This document shows, piece after piece, positions 7,441-47,394 of a stretch of DNA of 64,000 bases. Numbering within the stretch: position 1 is the first letter of the stretch; every line of letters starts with the position of its first letter. The notes beneath the pieces are model-generated. The model worked only from the letters and a program-made list of their open reading frames with translations, was not told where the DNA came from and made no database searches. The translations under genes were made by a program, and so were the position numbers. Origin of the DNA: Paracyclopina nana (taxonomy: Eukaryota; Arthropoda; Copepoda; Cyclopoida; Cyclopettidae); NCBI GenBank assembly GCA_019096065.1, contig JAGUCH010000007.1, positions 5,540,501 through 5,604,500 of the forward strand, written 5' to 3'.

Positions 7441-8235
7441 CCAAATAATGCTAAATCTTCAATTTCATGGTAAATGGATGAATACCACAAAGCACAAATA
7501 TGTCTTCTTTATACCGATAACTTGAGTGTTTTCTACAAAATTCCATATTTGAAAAGATGCCTCTGTGTAGTCAAACTGATGCCATATTTTTGACATTTCT
7601 TTTTATGCAGGGGGAAATGCCGCCAAAAATGCTTAAAAGTTTCATGACCATTCAAGGCAATCAAGATGCTAAGCAGCAAATTTCTCCCTTTTCCCATTTT
7701 GGTATGTGGCTGAAAAATAACTGAATTTCTGTGCGCTATGGTATGGTGCCAATTTTAGCAAGCCACTTAAAAATCGATTCTGAAACACGAAAATGGCGCG
7801 CTGCAGAGGAAAAAGGGAAATTTTTGCTTAAAACATGAAAGGTCATTGCAAAGGCAATTAGTTCACATTATGTGCATGCACCATGAAAAAAGGTTTCAAC
7901 TTTTCATTTAATGTTGCACCTCAGTACCAGCTTTGACCACAAATCTATTTCCAATAATTCACAAGTTTGCATCATACTACATCCATAGAAAAGACATATC
8001 TTTGAAACTTTTGACATGATCAGTTTTCAAGGGTTTTAAGTCCAATAAATTAGAAGTGAGAATCGATTGTTTTCCTCCTATTTTGCGTTCAGCCTGCCAA
8101 ACTGAAGGCGAATCCGGAAGGAGTAGCGTTAGTCGACGTCCAGATTTTCCTCGATTTGCCAGGGAAAAAGTTCATGCTCTGATTTGGCCATCTTCGTTCT
8201 CCGTCAACTCATCAAGTGCTTCTTTGTTATTGCAG

Positions 8236-10251
8236 ATGACGGTCTCATCAGACATTACTGGGACACTCGGTTCAGTCAGCTGGTCCGAAGAGCAGCTCTA
8301 CTTGAAGGAGTTTGTCCACAAGCACCCACTCCCAGCTGTGGTCAAAATAGTCAAAGGCCAGTACTGCAACTTGGGAGTCTCCAGCCTCTCCAATCCCAGC
8401 TTACACTCGACAATCCTCATCACCAGTCTGGGACCCAGTAAGAGGATCCTGGGACAGAGCATCAAGTTCAAGGACAACAACAGGAGAGTGGTCCCTGTGG
8501 GACCGAAGCTAGCCATTCCCAACACCTTTGATGGGTTCTTTGAGCTCCTCTCAGAGGATGGCAGGTGTGTCAGGTGCATTGAGTCTGTGGCAGAGCTAAG
8601 CAGGCGGTTCCCAGATGCCATCCTGGTCAGGGAACCACTCAGGGCATTTGTGTCCAAATCCGACGATGTGGACACGATTGAGGACCAGTCGAGGCTTGTC
8701 GAGGCTGGCGAGACACTCTTACTTGTGGGCGAAGTGATGGGAGTCAAGTTGAGGAACTTGAGAACCAGGTTCCTCAGGTGCTTTGACAAAAACGGGGAGA
8801 ATGTCTACTTGCCCTTTGAGCTCAAGGGCTGCAAATTCAGTGCCATTGCCAAAGAGGACAACATCAGTGGGGTGCACACTGTGGCCAATCTGACCTCCAA
8901 GAGGCTGCCACTCATGGCTAGACTGGTGCATGGGTTGCCCCCTGTGGGCCTGAAGAGCTCCCATGCATTCCTGCCTGAAATGAGACTGTTCACAGTGATC
9001 GAAGAGGACTTCCTGGTGGCCATGTCCCTAAGCAGTTCAGGAGCTGCAGGTGCAGTCACAGCCCTGCCCTTGCCAGCCATGCTCAAAGTGCAGTATGCCA
9101 CCAACATGCCCATGCTGGCCTCCTCGAAAGAGTTCATGAGGCTGAGGGAAAGGTGCCAGGAGCTGGGATCCACCCTGGAAGACAGGATGGTAGTGCATGA
9201 CATTGTCCTAGCTAAAGACTTGAGAATCAATGGGGCTGACCTGAAGCAAAGGCAGAGCCCTCAAAAAGTGCTCTATCCTGGCTCAGCTTCTGCTGCCAAT
9301 GCTGTGAGGAGGTTCTATGGCAATGGAGATGAGTATGATGAGATTGAGCAGATCTATGACTATGTCAGGGGGTTTGCTCCCCTGCCCAAAGCTGCAAGGG
9401 GATGGAAGTATGAGCCATCTAGTCCCACCAAGCTGAATAGCACTGATGATTCAGGGGGATCCAGTGATATGACCCCTCCAGAACCACCTCCCTTGGAGAC
9501 CTTACCCTCCAGAATGATGATGATGAGGCAGAGTAGTAATGACCTCTTCTCACCCCCTCCCTGGGACAGAACCTCCACCTATGGTAGCAAGCAGAATGAA
9601 GTCATCTATGAGCCAATGGCTGGCAGCAAACAGCAACCAGAAGCAAAGAAAAGGCAGAGGCACTCAGCAGCAGCTGACAAAAACAATGAGAACATTGCTC
9701 CTCTGAACTCAGCCTCAATTTCCACCACCACCACCACAGTGCCCAGGTTCCTCAAGTCAGCCAACTACAAAAACACTGGAAGCTCTGGCAACTCTGGAAC
9801 TGGTTATCGACAAAGGTTCTTCAGGACTAACCGGTCAAGCAACACAGCGAATAGCCAGCATCTGCAGGGAGGACCCTCCATGTTCCAGATGAGGTACAAA
9901 AGCATGACCAACTTGGCCACTCAAGTCAACAATATTGGGGAGTATGATACCATGAACAGCTCCAATTCTGGTGGCAAGACCTCTGGGGGCTCCAGCTCAG
10001 CAAGGCAACCGGAGAAGCGGAGCAGGAAACTGAGTAGACCCAAGTCTTTAACCAATCTTGTCTGGGGAACCAATCCTTCTGCAACTAGTAAGGAGAGGTC
10101 AGCCTCAAGACAGAGCCTGAGTCAGCCAGAAACCAACACCATCATGAGGAAGTTTTCCAAAGACTTCAGCAGTCCTGCCCACCATGCAGCTGTTTTTGCC
10201 AATGGCAAAAAGCTGGGAAGCTCCAAGAAAATTGGCACCCTCTATCTGTAA
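8236..10251 (+). CDS. CABIT-domain adaptor-like protein (Serrano/GAREM-like)
   Basis: One long exon encodes 671 aa. I place the start at 8236 because a splice acceptor (TTATTGCAG) abuts this ATG; the frame stays open upstream to an ATG at 8056, so a longer N terminus is possible. The N-terminal ~300 residues carry CABIT-like features: WSEEQLYLKEFV, LPAVVKIVKGQY, a FFELLSEDGR block, YLPFELKGCKFSAIAKED and NISGVHTV. In animals CABIT proteins include THEMIS and GAREM/Serrano, adaptors in kinase or planar-polarity signalling. The C-terminal half is Ser/Pro-rich and probably disordered, with Tyr motifs (YDEIEQIYDYV, EVIYEPMA, GEYDTM) that could be phosphorylation and SH2-docking sites. It ends in a basic Ser-rich tail. 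AATAAA follows near 10270. Family assignment is from memory of the domain; the orthologue is uncertain. Confidence 0.8.
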   Translation: MTVSSDITGTLGSVSWSEEQLYLKEFVHKHPLPAVVKIVKGQYCNLGVSSLSNPSLHSTILITSLGPSKRILGQSIKFKDNNRRVVPVGPKLAIPNTFDGFFELLSEDGRCVRCIESVAELSRRFPDAILVREPLRAFVSKSDDVDTIEDQSRLVEAGETLLLVGEVMGVKLRNLRTRFLRCFDKNGENVYLPFELKGCKFSAIAKEDNISGVHTVANLTSKRLPLMARLVHGLPPVGLKSSHAFLPEMRLFTVIEEDFLVAMSLSSSGAAGAVTALPLPAMLKVQYATNMPMLASSKEFMRLRERCQELGSTLEDRMVVHDIVLAKDLRINGADLKQRQSPQKVLYPGSASAANAVRRFYGNGDEYDEIEQIYDYVRGFAPLPKAARGWKYEPSSPTKLNSTDDSGGSSDMTPPEPPPLETLPSRMMMMRQSSNDLFSPPPWDRTSTYGSKQNEVIYEPMAGSKQQPEAKKRQRHSAAADKNNENIAPLNSASISTTTTTVPRFLKSANYKNTGSSGNSGTGYRQRFFRTNRSSNTANSQHLQGGPSMFQMRYKSMTNLATQVNNIGEYDTMNSSNSGGKTSGGSSSARQPEKRSRKLSRPKSLTNLVWGTNPSATSKERSASRQSLSQPETNTIMRKFSKDFSSPAHHAAVFANGKKLGSSKKIGTLYL

Positions 10252-22637: not shown

Positions 22638-25600
22638 TTAATCTGATTTTTTCAGATGGATAATAAATTTCAATTGTTGCATCAATGTTTTGCCCAATTC
22701 AGTTCTAAAAAGTTGAGTATGTTGCCAAGCAACTTCACCTTTTCCGCCTGAAAGCGAAGCTTGCAATATCAAGCTTTTGGATCCGGAAAGCTCTTCACTT
22801 TTCATGGTGATACCTGTGAAAAATACACAAGGTGGAAAAATATAGTGAAGATTAATTAATGATTATCCAACCTGGAATTGGCATGATTGACTTGGAGTCA
22901 CCCTGAAGACTCCACATGATTTTCCCACTTTCGAATACTTTGGATTCAACGTACAGTTCCACATTTTTGACCAAATACCCAGATGAGGTCAAGTCAATTT
23001 TCCATGATATTTTCCCATTGCATGATCCATCTGTAAAAAAAAGTTAAAGTCAAAAAAGTTATATTTGATTCCCGTTTCATAAAAAACGAGAAATTAGAAA
23101 GCTCTTTGCTTGTCGTCCTATTTATGTGCAAAATACTAACGAAACTAGGCTAGTTGTAATCTGTCCGCTTTTTTTTCAGTTCAAAATCAGAAAAAATCAT
23201 CGTGAGATTTATTGTAAAGTTCTCACCTTTTCTCGCAAGATAGACCATTTTCCAATCCGATTCTTCTTTTTTGATCACATTCTCTATCTGATAAGTCATG
23301 CTCGTCCAACCTTCAATAACCTCACTTGTCACCGATCGAGTGTAACAATCTCGGTTAATATCATATGACAATTCAATTTTCTCAGCTTTTTCTTCCTCCT
23401 TGGTAGGTTTTATGACAGCGTTGGCTGAATCACTTTTGGTTTCTTGCCTGGCCAATCTCCACGCTAAAGATCCGGATTGCCTACCTTGGCACTCATCCTC
23501 GCTCAGCTCCTTTTTGGCAAACATCAACTCAGCCAGCTCCACAAGCCTCATTTCTGCCAATTTCTTTTTTAACTCTGCACTCAGATTGGATTGCCAATGA
23601 TCAGTGACATCCAGAAGGAACTTGTTCAGCCAATCTTCACTGACGAGGTTGCGCCTGGGCTTGACATCATCATGGTTGACCACATATCGCTTTGTGACAT
23701 CTTGAACTTCATGGATAGAAGCTGCCATGACATAGGCCAACTTTTTGCCCCAGCCACAATCATAAACCTTTCGGAATAGAAACAATTAAATGTTTTTCCA
23801 ATCTAAGCTCTGATTCACCCACTAATTAGAGTACATACAGTCTGACCGTTCAAAATTGGACGGTACGGTAATCTAAACTTTTTGTCACATATTCAAGAAA
23901 TACAGGACTTTTAAATTATATAGTTGGAAAGATTGAGCCTTTTTCCATCTTTTTTGTAAAAATAGAAAAAATCAATTTAAAGAGGAAAAAACCGGGAAAA
24001 TTCAATTTTCCCAAGCCAACCCAGAAAATTGTCACGAAAATACTGATGCATCATTTATTTATTTTTTGCTGCCACGCGGAATTCACAATAATATTTTTCA
24101 TTTTGTCAGAAAACAAAAAAGATGTCCAAAGGTTCATGCTTTCCAACGATACCCATTAAGCCTCAAAATTCATGAATTCATAACACAAACTTTTGATTCC
24201 CTCACCGTCCAATTTTGAACGGTCAGACGGTATATCTATATTACACTGATATCCTACTTAATTTCTTTAAATTTTTAGTCCCATAAGATCAGCAATATAA
24301 GCTAAATTGAATACCTTAGGCTTGTCAATGATGCCTTCGCATGGATCCACATGCACCCATTTATGCTCAGTCTCGCTGTAGAATTCGCACCAGACATGAT
24401 CCGCAAAGTCATTGACATGCCTGACGAGGAATCCAAAAGCTCGTAGGATCAAGGCAAAACAATTGGCCCATTCTCCACATCTGCCTTGCCTGGTTTGAAG
24501 GAGTTTTTCAGGCACTAACGAGTACCTCGGGAATCGTTGCATCCTGGAGCAAATCCTACATTGGTACATCTCCACATTGACGGCTCCATCTCTGATTTCA
24601 ACAGCATTGCAAGATCCATTCCCTATGGCCATCATGTCAACCTGACAAGTGTCACATTGCAGCTTGTCAACCCAGGAAAAAAAGTCATTCTTGAACCATT
24701 TGACTAATTCATGGACAGCCAAATCCCTGAGAAGACTAGGAGGAATTTTGCCATCTTCGCTGAAGAGCAGCTTGAACTTGTCTTTGGCAGCCTTCTCCAG
24801 GCTGTCAATAGGAATGATTTCATGCACAGCTTTGTGAGCAAGTTTGTTTTCTCGAGCCAGGCAAACTTGCCTCTCTTTTTCAGCCCATTCGATGAATCTG
24901 GAGCAGCCTGGCACTGAGGTGATTTTAGGCAAGGGAGTTGCCAATGGTGGAGCGTCATCAGTTTTTCCAATGTAATCAGCCAAAGGTCTTTCTTTGGACA
25001 AATCGATGCAAAGATCTCCACTGCAAATGACATCTGGTTCAAGCTTGGTTGTGGTTTTCACAGCAGTTTCAGCAGCCGATTTTTTTGGTTGCAGTTTCTC
25101 AATGGCTTCTTTGTAAGCTTTCAGTATTTCAAGGTTGGCTGATAAAGGCAAAAAAAGTGCATCTGTGTCTTCTTCAAATCCTATGGAAAAGAGTGTTTCA
25201 AAGGCTCCACTGGCATTCAAAAGCATAGATTCAATCTTGGGATTGCTCAAGCGAATCCTCCGGAACTTGATGTTCTGCGAATCCCTCAAAATGTTTGAAA
25301 GGAGTTTGAGCAAAATCTCCTTGGCGTCAAGGAAAACTTGATCCGGATTATCAAGCAAATTATTCACAATTGAGGTGTCAACTTCAAGGCAACTTTGGTC
25401 CCAATTCAGAAATGCTGTCATGCCATTTTGCATGATTTCTTGCCTCGCGTCCCGACTCAAAATTTCTCCATTAGAAGCCTTGATCACAATTACAGCCGGA
25501 ATTCCTCGAACTTGAAGAGCTCCTTGAAGACTCCTGAAAAATTTAAATTAATTAATCAATTTTAGACCATTGCTTACCCAAGATTTTGACATTTTTACAT

Positions 25601-32500: not shown

Positions 32501-35138
32501 CTGCGGTCCCACCATGGATCTGGTTCATCTTGGCCTTGATCATGGATGGCTCGAAATTTTACTCCGAAAAACTCAACTTGTGGAGCAAAAGAGGGAGCAA
32601 TTTTTGCGCAAGAAGAGGCGATCAAGCATTGACTTGCACTCGTCAGGACCTTCGAAAAGGCATTGTCCGGATCCTTTCAAATGTATCCTTTGTGGAAAGG
32701 TATTGCCAATTCATGATCATCCTGGCGCTGTTGATCATTTTGCCACTCATGTCTGGATTGATTTGAAGCATGTCAGGCTGCAGCATACAAACAACAAGTG
32801 GTACAACTGCCTCATGTCCAAGCTACCTTTGGATGATTGGCTCAATCATCATGGATTGGAAGCCAATGACCCAAAGGCAAACGGCATGCTTAACTCCATG
32901 ATGCAAAGAGTGCATGATATCATTCAGGACAAGTGGTGTTGCCTATGCTTGAAAGTCATCGACAAGGATCATCGGTGTGACAAAGCGCTCTTCCAAGATC
33001 TAACTTCAGTTGAAGCTATCGAGAGCTTGAGAGTTGCCCCCTGTGGTGGTGGTGGTGAAAATGACAAGAAGGAGGGAAATGAGGATGTGAGGGAATTTTG
33101 TGACTACTGCCTCGAAGGCTTCAAGGTGAACGAGTTTCATCAACATATGGCATTGGGCCACTTCCGGAAGATCTTCGAAGTCAGAGTTCTACCTCTATAT
33201 GCAAATGGATCCAGGTGCAGGATATGCCATACATCCGAAGTGCACAAGAAAGAAGACCTAATCATGCATGTTGCCAAGTTCCACAAGCAATTGGAGAGGA
33301 TCATCTACACCATGGAAGATCAGGATTTGGAGCTTCAGCCCAAAAAAGTCCACGACATCTTCGATGAGCTCATCGATGTGAGCTCAGTGACCAAAGACCA
33401 CAAGGTGTTTCATTGCAAGAAATGTGGCAGCTCATACCACGACATCCAGAAGATCAGGGTGCATGTGAAGGACCACTTCAAGAAATCCTGGCCCTTGCCC
33501 AAGATTGGGCCTTACATTTGCCCCGAGTGCTTCCACGAGTCCACAACTTATTTGAACCTGTTCAAGCATGTGGGCACTCAGCATGGACATGAACCGATCA
33601 ACTCGAAGATCACGACAAGCCATGTCGCTCCTGTGGCCAATGCAAGGCCTGAGTTGCCCACTTTTGAGGCCAAAAAAGTCCTCTATACCAAAAAGACATT
33701 CACCATTGCGTTGCCAGCTGATCAAGTGGCTCCGAAGAAGACCGTCAAGTTCAGCCACTTTCTGACCAACTTGTACAAGGATGCTCAAGCTTGTGAGCCA
33801 AAGGAAGAGCCCATGGAGGAAGAAGTGTCGCAAACTCAATTGATCTCCAATGTTCATCCTCCCTCCAGGATTTGCAGCCTCCAGGAGAGCAAAAAGACGT
33901 ACCAAGCTCCCCACTATTGGCTTTGTGATGGCAAACTCCTTGTGCTGGAGGATCCCAAAGATCCCCACAACTTGGCCATTTTCCAAGACCAGTGGATCAG
34001 AGGACAACCTGTGGTGGTGTGCAACTCTTCAGCGTTGTTGAACAAGCATTTGTGGCATCCTAGGGCATTTCTCAATGATTTTGGCCACCTCAAGCATGAC
34101 TTGGTGAATTGCTTGACTGGCAAAACTGTGCCCAAGGCCTCCCTCACAAAGTTCTGGAAAGGCTTTGAGAATCTCAGCGAGCGCATCAAGGATCAAAGTG
34201 GGACACCAATGCTGCTCAAGTTGAAGGATTGGCCTCCAACCACTGACATTGCTAGTTACGTTCCTAAGCGATTCAAGGTAAATATATAACTTCTATAAAC
34301 TTTTGTTCTAATCAAATTAACCAAATTTGTCTGAAATTAAGCAATGAAGGATAATCCTTAATTGATAATTGAATTTTTCCAGGATCTCATCGATGCCTAC
34401 CCTTTGCATGAGTACACCCATAGGGAAGGCTTACTGAATCTCACGAGCTATCTGCCTGATTACTGCTTGAAGCCAGAGCTAGGACCAAAGATGTACATTG
34501 CCTATGGATCAGCCTTGTACTCGGACAAGGCTTCGACCAATTTACACATTGACATGTCGGATGCTGTCAACTGTCTGGTGTATGTGGGCTTTCCGCAGGA
34601 TGGCAACATGGAGGAGAACGCCAAGGAAGTCTTCAAAGAAGTGGACAAGGCCGGATGTGACATTTTGACCAAGAAGAGGATTCGATCCAGGAACATTTTG
34701 CCCGGAGCGCTTTGGCACATCTTCCACCCTTCGGATACGGTCAAGATCAGGGACTTTCTCAACAAAGTGGCCATCGAGAAGGGTGTCCGGCTTGATCCAC
34801 ATGATGATCCCATCCATGACCAAAGTACTTATTTGAATGGCAAGCTGAGGAAAAGGCTCTATGATGAGTATGGTGTGCAAGGCTATGCCATTGTACAGTG
34901 TGCTGGAGACACCGTTTTTATCCCTGCTGGAGCTGCTCACCAAGTGCGAAATTTGCACAATTGCATCAAGGTAGCTGAGGACTTTGTCTCGCCCGAGAAC
35001 ATATCGCATTGCTTGCATTTGACGCAAGAATTCAGACACTTGACGGAATGGCACACGAATCACGAAGACAAGCTGCAAATCAAGACCATTTTGTTCCATG
35101 CCATCAAAACTGCGCTGGCTGTTCTACAGAAAAACTGA
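26527..35138 (+). CDS. KDM3/JMJD1-like JmjC demethylase with C2H2-like finger array
   Basis: Eight exons (26527-28491, 28610-28926, 28982-29126, 29258-29779, 29838-30350, 30404-31929, 31991-34277, 34383-35138) give 2676 aa in one frame. Unusual C2H2-like pairs (C..C...H...H) begin in the first exon and recur through about residue 2300. A DSKAE repeat occupies residues ~339-418. The KDM3-type zinc finger is at ~1414-1440 (MCDVC...CTECGILVCIDC), followed by a conserved block to CSCC. The JmjC domain spans ~2290 to the end: LKDWPP, PDYCLKPELGPKMYIAYG, LHIDMSD (iron ligands H2480 and D2482), GVQGYAIVQCAGD and FIPAGAAHQVRN (H2611). The Fe(II) triad is intact, so H3K9me1/2 demethylation in the nucleus is expected from the family. 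The finger array is much larger than in vertebrate KDM3 as I know it, and could direct DNA binding. Confidence 0.88.
27541..28030 (+). repeat. 15-bp coding repeat (DSKAE) in the KDM3-like gene
   Basis: Sixteen 15-bp units (27541-27780) encode DSKAE-type pentapeptides, followed by looser ESKSE/PKSEE-type units to about 28030. The frame is kept throughout. The antisense frames are also open, a trivial result of the period. Confidence 0.95.
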
Positions 35139-36717: not shown

Positions 36718-37659
36718 TTAAGTACTTGATTGACCATCTGATAATAATATACTTTTCTCCTCGGCTTGGTCATCCGGATCTTCCTGAACATTGGCATAAA
36801 AGTCCAAAAGCTTGTTCATTTCCTCATCTGCTTTCGCTTTGTGAGCTTTCAAAGCTTCTTCCAGACCAGGATCATTGTCAGCTGGATCTACGTCAGGATC
36901 ATCTTCAGGCATGTAGGAATTGAGTACGTCCACATTGTCCAAGCGTCTTTTCTGCTTCAATTGCCTGATGACATCTCTGAAAGTCTCTTTGGCCAAGTCT
37001 TTGATGGTCTCAGCAGGGTAATGCAAATTTCTACGCGAATTAACCTGCTTGAAGATTTCCAGTATGTCGACAAAGTCAGGAAATTCATGCTTGTTCTTAT
37101 TTACCAACTCCATGATCTTGTCATTGGCCTCTGGAATCCTGGATGACGCAGTGATGAAAGGTTTGTCAATTTTCCTACCCAGGTTGACCTCGATTTTTTG
37201 TAGCTTGCAAATTTCTTGGTACTTCTCCATGAATTTCCTCTTCAAGTTGTCAAGCTTCACATAGTTGGAGTCTTCATTGTCCAACTCATCCAGGTTGAGC
37301 TCCGTTTGCTCAAGTAGTTCTATTTTCTTTGCATAATTTTCCAGGACTTTTTCCAACTTTTTCAGTTTGAGGCTGGCAATGGATTCAAGGTGTGAAAACT
37401 GGTTAATCTCACCTTTGAGCTGATTTATAACGTGTTTCACCTCTAGGGGCTTTTCTGCAACTCGTTGACAGCTTTTGCCTATGGCTTCAATTAAAGGCTC
37501 TAATTGAATTTGTGACTTTTTGATCAGTGCCATGTGCTTGAACATCACGGATTTCACATCGGCGTATTCAGAGTCGTCAATCATTCCTTTGATTGCTCTG
37601 AAAAATACCAACAATTTAGCTTGCACTTGATCACATTGCGATTCCTCATTTTTGGGCAT
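36718..37659 (-). CDS. DAXX: DAXX-like histone H3.3 chaperone, compact intronless form
   Basis: A single exon encodes 313 aa, starting at the first ATG of the frame. The N-terminal two thirds is helical (a DAXX helical bundle would fit at ~20-100) with coiled coil. Residues ~175-285 align by eye with the DAXX histone-binding domain: SSRIPEANDKIMELVNK, EFPDFVDILEIFKQVN, AKETFRDVIRQLKQKRRLD, DPDVDPADNDPGLEEALK and LLDFYA. The tail ends EEKSILLSDGQSST, like the C-terminal SUMO-interaction motif of DAXX. The family's role is deposition of H3.3-H4 with ATRX and SUMO/PML-linked repression. It is less than half the vertebrate length, lacking the long acidic and Ser/Pro regions. No intron is needed. 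Confidence 0.85.
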   Translation of the reverse strand: MPKNEESQCDQVQAKLLVFFRAIKGMIDDSEYADVKSVMFKHMALIKKSQIQLEPLIEAIGKSCQRVAEKPLEVKHVINQLKGEINQFSHLESIASLKLKKLEKVLENYAKKIELLEQTELNLDELDNEDSNYVKLDNLKRKFMEKYQEICKLQKIEVNLGRKIDKPFITASSRIPEANDKIMELVNKNKHEFPDFVDILEIFKQVNSRRNLHYPAETIKDLAKETFRDVIRQLKQKRRLDNVDVLNSYMPEDDPDVDPADNDPGLEEALKAHKAKADEEMNKLLDFYANVQEDPDDQAEEKSILLSDGQSST

Positions 37660-38321
37660 TTTATTTTCCGACAGCAAAAAGAAAATTGGCTCAGATTTCA
37701 AGATTTTTCAGGAATATTTCTGGAAATTGGAATTTCACCACAATTTTGGCAGCTGAATTTCGAATGAAGATTTGCTCATTTTGCTGATCAATTTTGGCAT
37801 TAACTGAGAAGAATTGAGGTAATTGTGGTATTTTAGACTCATTATTCAATTTTTGGTGATAAAAGCTTTGAAACAGTCTGGTAGCGCTGAAACGAGTAAA
37901 AGTAAACAACAAACTGAACAAAGTCGAAATTCTCTGTTCACTGCACGTTAGCGTTACGCTTCGAAATGCTACGTTCACCAAAGCAAGGAAAAGCTCAATT
38001 TTAGCTTTATTCTGGGATCCATATACGCGGGTAAATCTCATAACTTTTTTAAAGATTTATTTTTCTAGCTTGACAATATTTCAAAATGGCTGAAAATGGC
38101 AAAATGCAATATGTAATAATGCATACTATTATTGGTATATGAGTTTTCGTTAAAACATCCATTAAAAGCTATAGCATTTGATAGAAAATCACATTTTTGG
38201 TATTGTAATAATAATAATGATGGTGACATTTATGGAGGCCAGGCTATTACAATATTGTTCAAGCCGCAGGAATATTCACACCGGGTTGTACAAATCTTCA
38301 TCTACGAAACAAAATGACAGA

Positions 38322-40578: not shown

Positions 40579-43500
40579 CTACCAGAAATCGTTGAAATCC
40601 ATGGAAAGATAAAAGTTTGAGCTGGAAATGTTGAAAACCTTTGAGCCCCATGGGATTGTAGAAGTGAAAGCAGATTGCATTCTTGGGTAATTTTCTTCAT
40701 TTTGCACCACAACTCCATTCAATGTCAATGGACTGGACCAGCCAAAAGTGAATTCTTCTTCATTGTTCCTCTTTGAGTATCTCACTTGGATATCAGATTT
40801 TCTTGCATTGGACACACAGGCCAATTTGGCAGATAGGCTTTCCCCTGCATGAATGCACTCAAAGGCTTCTTCATACCTAGTCAAATATAGTTAGTGCACC
40901 TACTTCAACCATGAAAAATTAAACTGTCTAAATATTTTACTTGAAGAAATCCGCACATTTGTTCAAGATACAATCGAAGAAAGCCTCAACTCCAGAAGAC
41001 AAGCATTGGTTGTCAATCATGCACTCAATGAAACTGCCATTAAAAGTGTAACTGACTTCAATCTGGAAATAAAATGAACTCTGATAGCTGGTCCATGTGT
41101 AAAATTACTGATTCTTAACTGTTGAGTTCAAAATGGTTGTAGTGAAGTTGTCAAAAGTTCCATACTCTGCTATTGATCCCACTTCACAAATCCAAACATT
41201 TTGGATGCCTTGTGCAACCAAATCATATTGGCTTCCATTTTCAAAGCTTGCTTCTTTGTTTGAGTACATGCCCACTGCAATGAAAGTTTATGTTCACAGC
41301 TGTTAATATCCAATACTAGTTGAACAAACTTAAGCTTCTTAAAGATTGAGCAACAAGACTCTACATTTTTCTCACCAAATCCAGATCCTTGCTTGGCAAA
41401 AAACCAGTGCTGGTCAACCTGGACAAACTCATCTGATTCAAGCTTATTGAAGTTGGCGTGGGTTCTTTCTATTCCAAACACTACAAGAAAAAGTCCTCTT
41501 TTACATTTGTTACACATTTGATAGAAGCTAGTTTTCTTAGACAATTGAAAAGTGGAAAAAGTTGATAACAGCTGTCATTTGCTAGTACCTAAAGTAGCCA
41601 AAACATCCGGGTTATGCAAGGAAATGAGAGTTGTCCCAAATTGTCCCACTTTTGGATGAGCTCCAAGTACCCAGTACATACTGTCATGTTCCTATTGAAT
41701 TAAATTAGCTTAATTATGAGAGTGGGTTGGAAACTGCCAATTGACTGGTACATCATCAGGAGTGTTAGTAAGAGGCTGATGGCTGAAAAATGTGCCAGCT
41801 CTTTTAGGGTCCAAAGTGGCTTGCCAGGGATGCTGTTGGCCTATCACCCATCCAGCTAAAAGCCCAAAATAGCCCTATAACTATTTTTTAAGAATTATCA
41901 ATTTACTCACGATGGTAATTTTGCACAGAGCTTAGCATGTAATCCGGAGTCCTATAGGTGTAAACATTGGCTGTGCCCAAAGTTGATCCACCACCAAAAG
42001 CAGCTGTCTCCTGTCCAATGAGGGTGACCAAATTTGGCGCCAAATTCCACAATGGCTGAGCTGGTTTGATTTGGCCCCAAATCTCAGTTCTGTCCCATAA
42101 ATCATAAGCATCTCCAGTTAGGAAGATGCATTCTGGACTGGATGGATCGAAATAGGCTCCATCAGAGAACCAGAAAATGCAATCTTCAGGATTATCAGTG
42201 AAAATGCCCTCTTTGGCTCCATCTTTTGGATCCAGTCCAAACCTTTCCTTATACTCAAATACTCCATTTTCAATTTGTTCTCCTATCTTATGAGAATGGT
42301 GGGAAAAAGTTTTGCATGCAGGGGCATTATGTATTTTACCTCCAAGAGAGCCAATGGGAACTCATATCCATTCTTGGCTGCCAAAGCCAACATGGCTGAC
42401 TCACCATTGGCTCTTGGAACTTTACCCAATCCTTTGGTGAAATATAGGTAATTTATGTCATGTGTATCAATTTTCCCCTCAGTGTAAGCCCTTCCTCTAG
42501 CAGTGGAGAGCCTTTTAAGTCACTTAAAGTGATTGCAAGTTTGCCTTAATTGTGTTTTTGATTGTACCTTCTTCCTTTGCTTCCCAAGATATGGTCAAAA
42601 ATCTGCAAATTGAGAACCATGCTTGCAAACTGTTTAATCTCAGCATCTTGAGCCAAAGCCACCACAGAAGCCAGTGATTTGAAAGCAATTGGTCCATAAG
42701 TATCAGAGTTGAACTCAGAAAACCAAAGCTGGAAAGTATTTTGGAATAATTATTCCTTGCTAAAATGAACAACAAATGAGAATTGTTGCAAAGATCTCAG
42801 TTTTGGTGCCAAAGGAAAACATTGCCGTCAGGCATTATTTTCCTCAAACTTCTAGATGAATACTCAATAAGATCCACCTACCGAGCCCTATATTGGAGCC
42901 ATTGTTTTACCATATTTGAGCCTAGCTCAGCATTGGCAGATCCATTGGCTTTGGAGGCCTCAAACCTCATCTGATTGAGGTCTGGATTAAGAGCAAACGC
43001 TTGACCTATCAAATATTTGCCAGCCTTCCAACCAATTTGATGATTTTCACTCCAAAATTGCATTGTGTTGAAGTCTCCTGTCTCGTTCATCCTTTCATGA
43101 AAAATAAATTGTTTGGCTTTCAGACGAATTTGCACTATTTTTGTTGCAATTTCAATAATGTTACTTAGGCTTAACTAGAAAATGGCATGTTCTAAACTAT
43201 CAGGATATTTATGGCAAATTAATAAGCTTATTGCTGATAATGTGCTCTTAAATCTTAAAAATCCGAGCTAAAAATATGTGTACCAGAGTGGTAGATTAAT
43301 TGTTGCATTAAGCACGATAGGCTTGAAATCCTCTGTAAATATAGGATGATTCCAATTTCGGTTGAACAGCCAAGAAAAAGCTGCAAGGCAGAAATCAACT
43401 CCATCGTCTCTTTTATTCATCCCTTCAGCCTAGTAAAACAACTTACGACAAATGCGACAATGTTTTAATGAACATTTACTTTAATTTTGATCAACTTTTT

Positions 43501-44964
43501 TTCAAAGTTTCATATTTGATGAATATTTATGTTTTTCTTGTGAATTCTTTGAAGAAAATGAAGTATGTCATTTAATTATAATTGTCAAAAACTTTTTTTA
43601 TATACTGCATGACTGGTTAGGATTTGGAAAAAACCAAGTGAAATCAGGATTTTCCCTTATCTGCCTCGATGACCATTTGACAGATTCGTTAATCCCAAAA
43701 AAGCAAGGCAGATAAGTTGATATTTTTAGCATTGTAAGCTTATTAGCAAAGATTATAATTTTCTGCCTGCTCGATTTTTTAAGTCCTAAAATAACTGTAA
43801 AAGGGAGCATGTACCAGAATGGTAGATTTAGGGTTGCATTCAGCACAACAGACTTGAAGTCCTCAGTTAATTCAGGATGATTCCAATGTCGGTTGAACAG
43901 CCAAGAAAAAGCTGCAAGGCTGAAGTCAACTCCATCGTCTCTTTTATTCATCCCTTCAGCCTAGTAAAACAACTTACGACAAATGCGACAATGTTTTAAT
44001 GAACATTTACTTTAATTTTGATCAACTTTTTTTCAAAGTTTCATATTTGATAAATATTTATGTTTTTCTTGTGAATTCTTTGAAGAAAATGAAGTATGTC
44101 ATTTAATTATAATTGTCAAAAACTTTTTTTATATACTGCATGACTGGTTAGGATTTGGAAAAAACCAAGTGAAATCAGGATTTTCCCTAATCTGCCTAGA
44201 TGACCATTTGACAGATTCGTTAATCCCAAAAAAAGCAAAGCAGATAAGTTGATATTTTTAGCATTGTAAGCTTATTAGCAAAGATTATAATTTTCTGCCT
44301 GCTCGATTTTTTAAGTCCTTAAATAACTGTGAAAGGGAGCATGTACCAGAATGGTAGATTTAGGGTTGCATTCAGCACAACAGACTTGAAGTCCTCAGTT
44401 AATTCAGGATGATTCCAATGTCGGTTGAACAGCCAAGAAAAAGCTGCAAGGCTGAAGTCAACTCCACCGTCCCTTTCATTCATTCTTTGTGCCTAATTAA
44501 GAAATATTTCAAAGAATACAAGAAATAAAAGGATCTAATTTTTTGTTCTTTAAATACGCCTTTTTTGCATAAATATCTTGCCCAAATCAAATTGCTGCGT
44601 AATAAGACTCATTTATCATGTTATCAATTTGCTGTCAGTTTCCAAAACTGAAATGCTATCTAATAAGGAAAAGGATCTTTTGCGTCAAGATTTTGCCAAT
44701 CTTTTGCTGAGAGATGAACACCAACAATCGGTGGAAAATTATTACTGCTTTAAGGAAAGCTTCCTGGCAAAATCCAGAGCCATTGGCAAACTCCAATTTG
44801 AGGACATCCAGCCAAATGTTGTCACAGCTGTGCAAAGGCAGATTTTCCTCAATGAAAAGGTCGATTCTTGCGTTGAAATCATCCCTTAATTGATGTCCAA
44901 AGGCCAAGCTGGCAAGCAGGCTCAAGGCCAAAATGCAGCAGTTCACTTGACTCAACAGCTTCAT
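40579..44964 (-). CDS. Large secreted protein of unrecognised family with a triplicated exon
   Basis: Constant exons 44746-44964, 42911-43091, 42568-42728, 42340-42496, 41911-42286, 41746-41855, 41589-41691, 41376-41480, 41120-41274, 40941-41062 and 40579-40876, plus one of three 146-bp exons, give 710 aa in one frame. A signal peptide (MKLLSQVNCCILALSLLASL) opens the protein. Conserved-looking motifs are WMNETGDFNTMQFWSENHQIGWKAGKYLIGQ (in parts), TAAFGGGSTLGTANVYTYRT, GWVIGQQHPWQATLDP and YWVLGAHPKVGQFGTTLISL. The W..ENHQI..-type sequence reminded me of alpha/alpha-barrel carbohydrate enzymes, but this is weak. NxS/T sites and paired Cys fit extracellular location. No function is claimed. 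Confidence 0.75.
43284..43429 (-). other. Alternative exon variant A
   Basis: This 146-bp exon is flanked by a TAG acceptor and a GTACAC donor. It encodes AEGMNKRDDGVDFCLAAFSW... ending NLPL. It differs from variant B at about 8 of 49 residues, making it the most diverged copy. It is nearest the next constant exon. Confidence 0.75.
43815..43960 (-). other. Alternative exon variant B
   Basis: This 146-bp exon has a TAG acceptor and GTACAT donor. It encodes AEGMNKRDDGVDFSLAAFSW... ending NLPF. The flanking intron is nearly identical to that of variant C, so the duplication is recent. Confidence 0.75.
44347..44492 (-). other. Alternative exon variant C
   Basis: This 146-bp exon has a TAG acceptor and GTACAT donor. 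It encodes AQRMNERDGGVDFSLAAFSW..., differing from B only in the first few residues. It is first in transcript order, after the signal-peptide exon. Confidence 0.75.
44561..44654 (-). repeat. Hairpin-headed dispersed element
   Basis: On the minus strand it has TTTCAGTTTTGGAAACTGAC, AGCAAATTGATAACATG, ATGAGTCTTATTACG, AATTTGATTTGGG and ATGCAAAAAA. It lies in intron 1 of the secreted-protein gene. Confidence 0.8.
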
Positions 44965-45043: not shown

Positions 45044-47394
45044 TCAGTCCCCAGTTTTTGCAGGCTTCCACTTGACATTGGCAGCTGGGCCCTCATTTCT
45101 CACTCGGTCCTTACGCCTTCGGTCAATGTTATCAATCAAGTGGGTGGACACTCGGTCATAAACCTCAGTGAACTGGAACTTGAGCCCAACCTTGATGAGA
45201 GTGTGGTTTTTGCAAATGGCGTCAGCAATCAAGGACTCCACACGATACCTGAAAAAATGCTTCCAGTCTTCATTCCAAGCTGAATATGGACTATTTAATT
45301 TTTACCCCATGTTGGATTGTGTCTGGTTGGCCAAGTGAACCTCGACAATGCCGGAGTTGTTGACAGTCAAGGCCTCAAACATGCCAGCAATGGTGTCCGG
45401 AGAGATCCGGTTGGACTCCAGATTGAGCGACTTGAGTGTGGTGTTTTGCTCAAGAGCAGCATTCAAGGTGGCGCAAGCAAAGTCATTGACGTCGCAGTTC
45501 ACTGCCGAGAGCTTGACCAGATTCTCATTAGTCTTGAGGGCGTCAAAGAGCTCGACAAATTGCTCCTCCTTGATATCCTTGATGTTGTTCAAGTTGAGGT
45601 CCTTGAGCTCCTTGTCATTCTTCTTCACTTTCTCGATCGATTCAGGGACATTGGTGGTGTTGGCAGGATCAGGCTCGTAGTACTTGAGTGGATCAGCGTA
45701 GGCTTCCATGATGAATTCCTGAAGGATTTGTATGTTTAAAATATCAGATAATGTTGAATATCTACTAATATTCTAAGGTAGTATTCAATATCGTCTAATA
45801 TTCCAAGATAATGTTGAATATCTACTAATATTCTAAGGTAATATTGAATATCTTCTAATATTCCAAGATAATGTTGAATATCTACTAATATTCTTGCGTA
45901 ATATTGAATATCTTCTAAGGCATGGTTCACCTGCTAATAATATCTGATATTTTGTCAAAATATCGGAGCGAAATACTGAGAAACTGAGAATTTTGATATT
46001 GTTGTTGGATGGCTTTTGGTGCCAAAAGACCGAATCCAAAGAAGAAAAATTAAAAAAAATTTTTTGGAAGTTCATGATACTTGCAAATATCAGCATAATA
46101 TCGCTCGGTATTTTGATCATAATATCGCAGGTGAACCAGGCCTAATATTCCAAGATAATGTTGAATATCTACTAATATTCTAACGTAATATTGAATATCT
46201 TCTAATATTCCACGATAATGTTGAATATCTACTAATATTCTAAGGTAGTATTCAATATCTTCTAATATTCCAAGATAATGTTGAGTATCTACTAATATTC
46301 TAAGGTAATATTCAATATCTTCTAATATTCCAAGATAATGTTAAGTATCTACTAATATTATAAGTTGGTAATATTGAATATCTCCTAATTTTCAAAGATA
46401 TTATTGAATGTTTTGTATCATTTAAAACTATTATTGAATTTCCTGTAATACTCTTAGATATTATTGAAGAATAACAGCAAAGTCACATAATATCCTAGAA
46501 TATTACTTGATTTTGTTTACTATTTTGTCATTTTACCTGAGGGTTGGAATCCAGGATCTCAGCCAGGGTCATGAGGTCATTGGTTGTGGCTGAGCCAAGA
46601 GCAGCCTCCTCGTCATCATCCAGCCTCACTGACTCTGCCACAGCCTCTTTTCGGCGAATGGCCTCCAACTCGGCCTCATTGTAGGTCGGTACATACACCT
46701 TGCCCCTTTTCTTACCTGGTTCAAAAGGAACCACTTCCTCAATGGGTGGAGCGTTCATACCTTAAAAAAAATTAAAATCCTTTGTTGAATTTCAACTTTT
46801 CGTAGTGAAAACATTTTTTATTTCTAGATAAAATGATATCTTAACGTAATTATCAACCAGGAAGTGGAAAGCGTCCCAGGTGTAAGTTAGTGCGCAATTT
46901 ACTTTGTACCAAAGCTAGTTTTTCAGATCAATGCATAATAATCCCAGCTTTCAAAAGTCAATAAAGATTGTCTAAGAAATGCCATAAAGCTGAAAAGCTT
47001 ATGAGATTGTTTCAAATTCCCTATTTTCCAGTTTGGTCAACAAATTAATCCATTTCAAGACGATTCATAAGCTGGTTTTGCAATCATGCTATTTATAGCC
47101 AGTTATTATACAAAAAATTGATCCATTTACATTTCCTAAATTGTGTTATCTAATATTGTTACCTTCTTCGTTGATTCTATTGATGAGTGAGTCTCTGTTG
47201 AGTGGCCCAGTGGGAGCTTTGTTGCATCTGTATGAATTTCGCACCGAAGCTGGCAAATGTTTGTCATCTGGATCAGAAGCCATTTCGTCCACCAGAGCTT
47301 GGACGTCATCCGGAGAAAGACCAGCCAACAGATCCTCAAGGTCTCCATCCGGAGCATTGAGGACATCACGTCCAAAGTGCATTGTACGAGACAT
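45044..47394 (-). CDS. tmod: Tropomodulin
   Basis: Exons 47163-47394, 46537-46760, 45306-45718 and 45044-45248 give 357 aa, the normal tropomodulin length. The N-terminal half carries the tropomyosin/actin-capping segment (DLEDLLAGLSPDDVQALVDEM, DPDDKHLPASVRN, GKVYVPTY). The C-terminal half is the leucine-rich-repeat cap (DLNLNNIKDI, LVKLSAVNCDVND, TTLKSLNLESNRIS, GIVEVHLANQ, LIKVGLKFQF). It caps pointed ends of actin filaments together with tropomyosin in sarcomeres and the membrane skeleton. An AG acceptor 8 bases before the start ATG indicates a non-coding 5' exon. Intron 2 holds a 60-bp minisatellite interrupted by a MITE. Confidence 0.95.
45741..46440. repeat. 60-bp (2 x 30) minisatellite in the tropomodulin intron
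   Basis: The unit is a TAATATTCCAAGATAATGTTGAATATCTAC-type 30-mer alternating with a TAATATTCTAAGGTAATATTGAATATCTTC-type 30-mer. GATAATGTTGAATATCTACT recurs at exact 60-bp steps (45747, 45807, 45867). The array is split by the MITE at 45919-46142 and decays after about 46380. Confidence 0.92.
45919..46142 (-). mobile_element. PIF/Harbinger-like MITE, copy 2, inserted in the minisatellite
   Basis: 224 bp with inverted ends GGCATGGTTCACCTGC / GCAGGTGAACCAGGCC and flanking TAA on both sides (45916-45918, 46143-46145). It is the reverse orientation of the copy at 49448-49669. Minisatellite sequence resumes in step on both sides, so it inserted after array growth began. Confidence 0.88.

Follow-up and report, generated by a model that had tools for sequence, protein, structure and literature searches.

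A gene on the minus strand of the 64,000-nucleotide stretch of Paracyclopina nana DNA analyzed here (the window; positions are counted from its first letter) carries three tandem copies, V1, V2 and V3, of a 146-bp exon, and the middle copy, V2, is a recent V3/V1 recombinant that bears the mark of an unequal crossover within the exon, in an array that formerly had two such exons. The best explanation of the locus, to which we give about an even chance, is that this is an alternative-exon array in the gene of a secreted, polysaccharide-lyase-like protein, in which one copy would enter each mRNA and the reading frame would provide the exclusion. The recombinant origin of the middle copy adds to the original observation, made in an earlier note on this DNA, of three exon copies that must be spliced mutually exclusively.

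Layout and frame arithmetic of the exon array

The gene occupies 12 exon positions from 44964 to 40579 (Table 1). All three copies of the variable exon are open in the frame of the protein family, and every copy is preceded by AG and directly followed by GTACA. The start region and frame of exon 1 resemble those of a relative, P0046. A 300-bp stretch of the array recurs at 94% identity, which rules out a chance repeat.

Since the 146-bp length is not divisible by three and the neighboring exons impose phases 0 and 2, an in-frame mRNA needs exactly one copy. When all eight inclusion patterns were translated, three stayed in frame through exon 3, each of them containing a single copy; skipping of all copies led to a stop in exon 3, and inclusion of any two (three patterns) or of all three led to a stop in the second copy. 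The copies thus share their length and their phases (0 in, 2 out) and keep the frame by single inclusion alone, as is looked for in mutually exclusive clusters. The earlier note had described equal-length tandem exons with GT-AG sites, lying between an exon that ends in phase 0 and one that is entered in phase 2, of which just one could be included without loss of frame; the AG/GT borders of the 3 x 146-bp copies, the end of exon 1, the entry of exon 3 and the eight translations bear this description out.

Two simple devices for keeping such exons apart find little place here. The introns between the copies measure 385-386 bp and are longer than the gene's other introns, outside the array, of 53-153 bp, so steric exclusion by a too-short intron is unlikely. 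A mixture of U2 and U12 introns is unsupported, the donors being ordinary GTA sites and not of the U12 consensus.

On the same strand, 79 bp (45043-44965) lie between the stop codon of an upstream tropomodulin-like gene and the start of the array gene, and the two are possibly co-transcribed, perhaps with trans-splicing. The tropomodulin-like gene was named by eye from its open reading frames, Pfam giving sub-threshold leucine-rich-repeat matches alone; beside the tropomodulin-like coding exon, arrays of a 30-bp AT-rich tandem repeat form two blocks at 45686-46468. Among other open reading frames of the window, Pfam matched 5 of 10, and these are included in Table 1.

Table 1. Coordinates of the array gene and of other features in the window
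Feature	Positions	Strand	Length	Basis or remark
Exon 1	44746..44964	-	219 bp	Holds the start codon, an apparent signal peptide (by eye) and the N-terminus of the mature protein; phase-0 end at GCA/GTAATA
Intron i0	44493..44745	-	253 bp	
V1, variable exon copy	44347..44492	-	146 bp	
Intron i1	43961..44346	-	386 bp	Near copy of i2
V2, variable exon copy	43815..43960	-	146 bp	Chimera
Intron i2	43430..43814	-	385 bp	
V3, variable exon copy	43284..43429	-	146 bp	
Intron i3	43092..43283	-	192 bp	
Exon 3	42882..43091	-		Phase-2 entry; bears family SENHQ motif
Exon 4	42568..42728	-		One base out of frame relative to aligned homologues (FGFSEFNSDTY region)
Exon 5	42340..42511	-		Gene model, alignment
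Exon 6	41911..42286	-		Gene model, alignment
Exon 7	41752..41855	-		Gene model, alignment
Exon 8	41589..41691	-		Gene model, alignment
Exon 9	41376..41480	-		Gene model, alignment
Exon 10	41120..41274	-		Alignment; end set by eye at donor ACA/GTTAAG
Exon 11	40941..41062	-		Gene model
Exon 12 with stop codon	40579..40876	-		Gene model
CABIT domain	8056-10251			Pfam
Cytochrome P450	21318-22061			Pfam
PUB and transglutaminase core (peptide N-glycanase-like)	24267-25487			Pfam
JmjC	34362-35138			Pfam
DAXX histone-binding	36718-37701			Pfam

Origin of V2 and relation of V1 to V3

Of the 146 sites of the exon, 23 distinguish V1 from V3, the two being 84% identical. At these sites V2 follows V3 at the first 7 and V1 at the remaining 16, with zero private changes: its positions 1-35 are identical to V3 and its positions 27-146 to V1, which places the crossover in the common 9-bp block 27-35. 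Under random ordering, so perfect a 7 + 16 sorting has a probability of 4e-6. Between introns i1 and i2 there are 6 substitutions and a single 1-base indel, and the contrast between 0 private changes in the 146 bp of V2 and 6 substitutions in 385 bp of intron is merely suggestive (Fisher p 0.20). The near-identity of i1 and i2 is accounted for by the recent unequal crossover, which also duplicated the intron; as a by-product of that event, it is no evidence for conserved regulatory elements. Over 48 whole codons, the amino-acid differences number 4 between V1 and V2, 8 between V2 and V3, and 12 between V1 and V3, and the earlier remark that variants B and C are almost identical while A carries about 8 changes was right, with A, B and C being V3, V2 and V1, respectively.

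V1 and V3 are old and under protein-level constraint. Their dS is 0.42 and their dN 0.125, giving a dN/dS of about 0.30 (Fisher p 0.011), and when the 23 changes were placed at random 5000 times, 4% of the placements produced as few amino-acid changes. V2 is too young for a test of constraint, and these figures describe the V1-V3 pair alone. An open frame is by itself weak evidence, given that 48% of 5000 random placements stayed open.

The outer introns of V1 and V3 have diverged far beyond the synonymous sites of the exons: over 180-bp flanks, when 300 simulations were run at K 0.42, 0, 0, 0 and 1 of them were as low as observed, a result that is weaker over 60 bp, where 4 to 37 of 300 were as low. 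No homology was found on the acceptor side of the V1 and V3 introns over 180 bp (758 of 2000 shuffles as good). The donor side shows a slight excess of similarity over 180 bp, where 30 of 2000 shuffles did as well, or 133 of 2000 once the splice site was left out; this excess may be a trace of common descent. Because these flanks have diverged much further than the exons, either the old duplication spanned little beyond the exon or V1 and V3 have stayed alike through exchange with each other.

An old exon duplication would thus have given rise to V1 and V3. Much later, V3 of one copy would have paired with V1 of another, and an unequal crossover in the 9-bp identical block would have yielded the order V1, intron, V3/V1 hybrid V2, duplicate intron, V3.

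The encoded protein and its relatives

The protein appears to be a secreted member, encoded at a single locus, of an unnamed and mostly bacterial family. In a search that scored the 7999 candidates sharing most words, its best match, P0001, encoded on a public 2371-base assembled contig, was 57% identical, and the Tigriopus californicus protein TCAL_02356 was 44% identical over 64% of the query. No transcript of the gene and no near-identical protein came up, the best matches in three protein searches reaching 57-63% identity, and within the 92-Mb genome, assembled in 10 contigs, DNA and protein searches matched this locus alone among the best candidates scored. Pfam returned no family for the spliced protein or for P0001, and among 40 members it matched one family, weakly, in 3; no PDB entry matched by sequence at E up to 1; NCBIfam gave matches for 1 of 4 proteins, which scored at most about 22 bits where the cut-offs are at least 272; and tblastn found no relatives in viral contigs.

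In the predicted model of P0001 (pLDDT 88.9), the variable exon corresponds to residues 47-95, on helices 57-71 and 79-91, and the SENHQ motif to residues 109-113. The exon encodes a helical hairpin, the end of which lies 14 residues ahead of this conserved motif, which is invariant or nearly so in the family and whose Asn and His may be catalytic. By Foldseek, the predicted fold was aligned with alginate, heparin and hyaluronate lyases at 6-12% identity with low TM-scores, the rmsd being mostly 5-7.6 Å with one row at 16.5; the alpha-toroid plus beta-sandwich lyases PL17 Alg17c, PL8 hyaluronate lyase and heparinase III, together with dermatan sulfate epimerase, are among these comparisons. 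The predicted fold may resemble that of such lyases, a lead and no proof. The family is probably one of carbohydrate-active enzymes without a Pfam model.

The three copies were scored against 9 relative sequences, about 8 of them independent in that P0048 is nearly P0001. Mean BLOSUM62 scores were 147.0 (V2), 139.9 (V1) and 130.3 (V3); residues absent from all 9 relatives numbered 7, 8 and 10, respectively, per 49 positions. V2 thus stands closest to the family, narrowly ahead of V1. The most derived copy is V3, which has a proline at position 37 in a predicted helix and changes at positions 25, 31 and 48; given its number of residues absent from the relatives, it may be decaying or specialized.

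Read by eye, P0046 continues after exon 1, across a short intron, into one variable-type exon, and P0044 leads from one variable-type exon across a short intron into exon 3, so the exon borders are common to at least two relatives. No intron separates the variable exon from exon 3 in P0043 and P0045, where the two form one open frame (by eye), and the split arrangement is therefore not general in the family. A second exon copy was seen in none of the relatives compared. P0044 and P0047, from public contigs of which the longest have 2498 and 2445 bases, carry differing versions of the variable exon, about 70% identical by eye, and could be two copies of one genome. Bacterial relatives at two loci (L075:155-9062 and L046:1864-7731) lie near alpha-L-fucosidase genes, and one of them also adjoins a TonB receptor and a SusD-like gene.

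Competing explanations and known exon clusters

Exon 4 is one base off the frame of the aligned homologues, and the gene as assembled would therefore not yield a full protein. The shift arises with the exon 3 donor that keeps a conserved segment, and it sits in a short T run. The donor at 42911 of the first gene model was dropped, as relatives retain a VKQWLQYRAR-like segment, and no non-canonical exon 3 donor that would rescue the frame of exon 4 was found by eye; in one study, GG/GA donors are put at about 12% of introns in Eurytemora affinis (PMC5714493). Matches to TCP1/CCT in the same genome (28 matched stretches) could be linked over gaps the size of introns, and none showed a frameshift, as judged by eye with stop-containing stretches taken as introns, and indel errors therefore seem not to be rampant in the assembly. 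The shift is either a recent lesion or null allele or an assembly error. That the gene is a recent null or pseudogene, its array the relic of a once functional gene, would agree with the frameshift and with the apparent scarcity of indel errors, but a short T run is a plausible site for a sequencing error or a single-allele lesion, and the other splice sites and frames are intact as modeled (the exon 10 end by eye); we consider this reading rather unlikely. Somewhat more credence, though still well short of an even chance, goes to a neutral tandem duplication, in which one copy is nearly always spliced, the others are spare or cryptic, and rare double inclusions are degraded. The youth of V2, as read from the few differences between its flanking introns, the low family score of V3 and the uninterrupted frame in two relatives all fit with it; however, V1 and V3 retain length, phase, splice sites and their dN/dS near 0.30 over a dS of 0.42, which is hardly expected of a long-unused copy.

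Another possibility is that V2 arose as an artefact of assembly, through false duplication from two haplotypes, and the 6 substitutions in 385 bp that separate i1 from i2 are comparable to the divergence between alleles in a small crustacean. Yet a 9-bp join block between 84%-identical exons is too short to confuse an assembler and natural for a crossover, and the genome search found the array once in the 10-contig assembly, so that we hold an artefact to be very improbable. Scarcely better placed is a choice through competing intron RNA pairings, as in Dscam. The earlier note had suggested that the near-identical introns may hold such competing elements and that folding them could disclose docking and selector pairs, a suggestion that gained no consistent support. 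Single introns folded no better than shuffles (z 0.67, -0.63, -1.44 and 1.39), and whole-intron duplexes of all 6 intron pairs fell within dinucleotide shuffles. In 26-nt windows, i3-i1 and i3-i2 were mildly favorable (1 and 3 of 40 shuffles as good, respectively), but the two best duplexes involve separate sites of i3, and of the six substitutions between i1 and i2, two (i1 positions 149 and 158) fall inside the i1 pairing partner; the three pairings with i0 showed no such advantage over shuffles in these windows. In this one genome, a common docking site in i3 appears unsupported.

Tandemly duplicated mutually exclusive exons are described in insects for Mhc, 14-3-3zeta, srp and MRP (PMC6071210, PMC9013439). 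The copepod array is like them in its neighboring homologous exons of equal length and phase, in that more than one copy breaks the frame, and in a tandem-duplication origin that includes part of an intron; unlike them, it is known here from DNA alone, one of its copies is a demonstrable intra-exon recombinant, and its gene belongs to a mostly bacterial, carbohydrate-enzyme-like family. It is plausibly a further case of this familiar kind of exon cluster. Exon 6 of Drosophila Dscam has 48 copies (PMC6071210). Like the Dscam clusters, the array would offer several homologous exons, one to be chosen, for a segment of an extracellular protein, but it has three copies rather than 48, and no docking or selector element was found in its introns. 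We take its protein to be unrelated to Dscam, and the label "Dscam-type" remains an analogy. Among the matches listed in literature searches, whether for mutually exclusive exons of recombinant or tandem origin or for polysaccharide lyases of copepods, none concerned this gene.

Under the favored explanation, an alternative-exon array with one copy per mRNA, messages with none, two or three copies would stop early and be degraded, and exclusion would most likely be achieved or enforced by the reading frame. The three isoforms would differ in one helical hairpin of a helical domain, just upstream of the Asn-His motif. The sequence itself shows the three copies, the chimeric V2, the arithmetic of the frame, the constraint on V1 and V3 and, for a relative, a predicted fold; the use of all three copies, a regulated exclusion and isoform-specific substrate use are inferred. 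A more far-reaching proposal, which strikes us as quite unlikely, is that unequal crossing-over within the exon renews the array, with V2 as a near-consensus exon beside two diverging ones and copy number perhaps segregating, in a birth-and-death system that tunes a carbohydrate enzyme possibly acquired from bacteria; were this true, the reciprocal product of the crossover would be an allele with a single, V1/V3 hybrid exon. Should the copies be in use, the array would have been caught just after its growth from two to three, with both parents and the hybrid readable. It would then offer a clean case for exclusion with freshly duplicated introns and a steric barrier unlikely, and an unusual instance of a choice among exons in the gene of a secreted protein that resembles carbohydrate enzymes and whose family is mostly bacterial.
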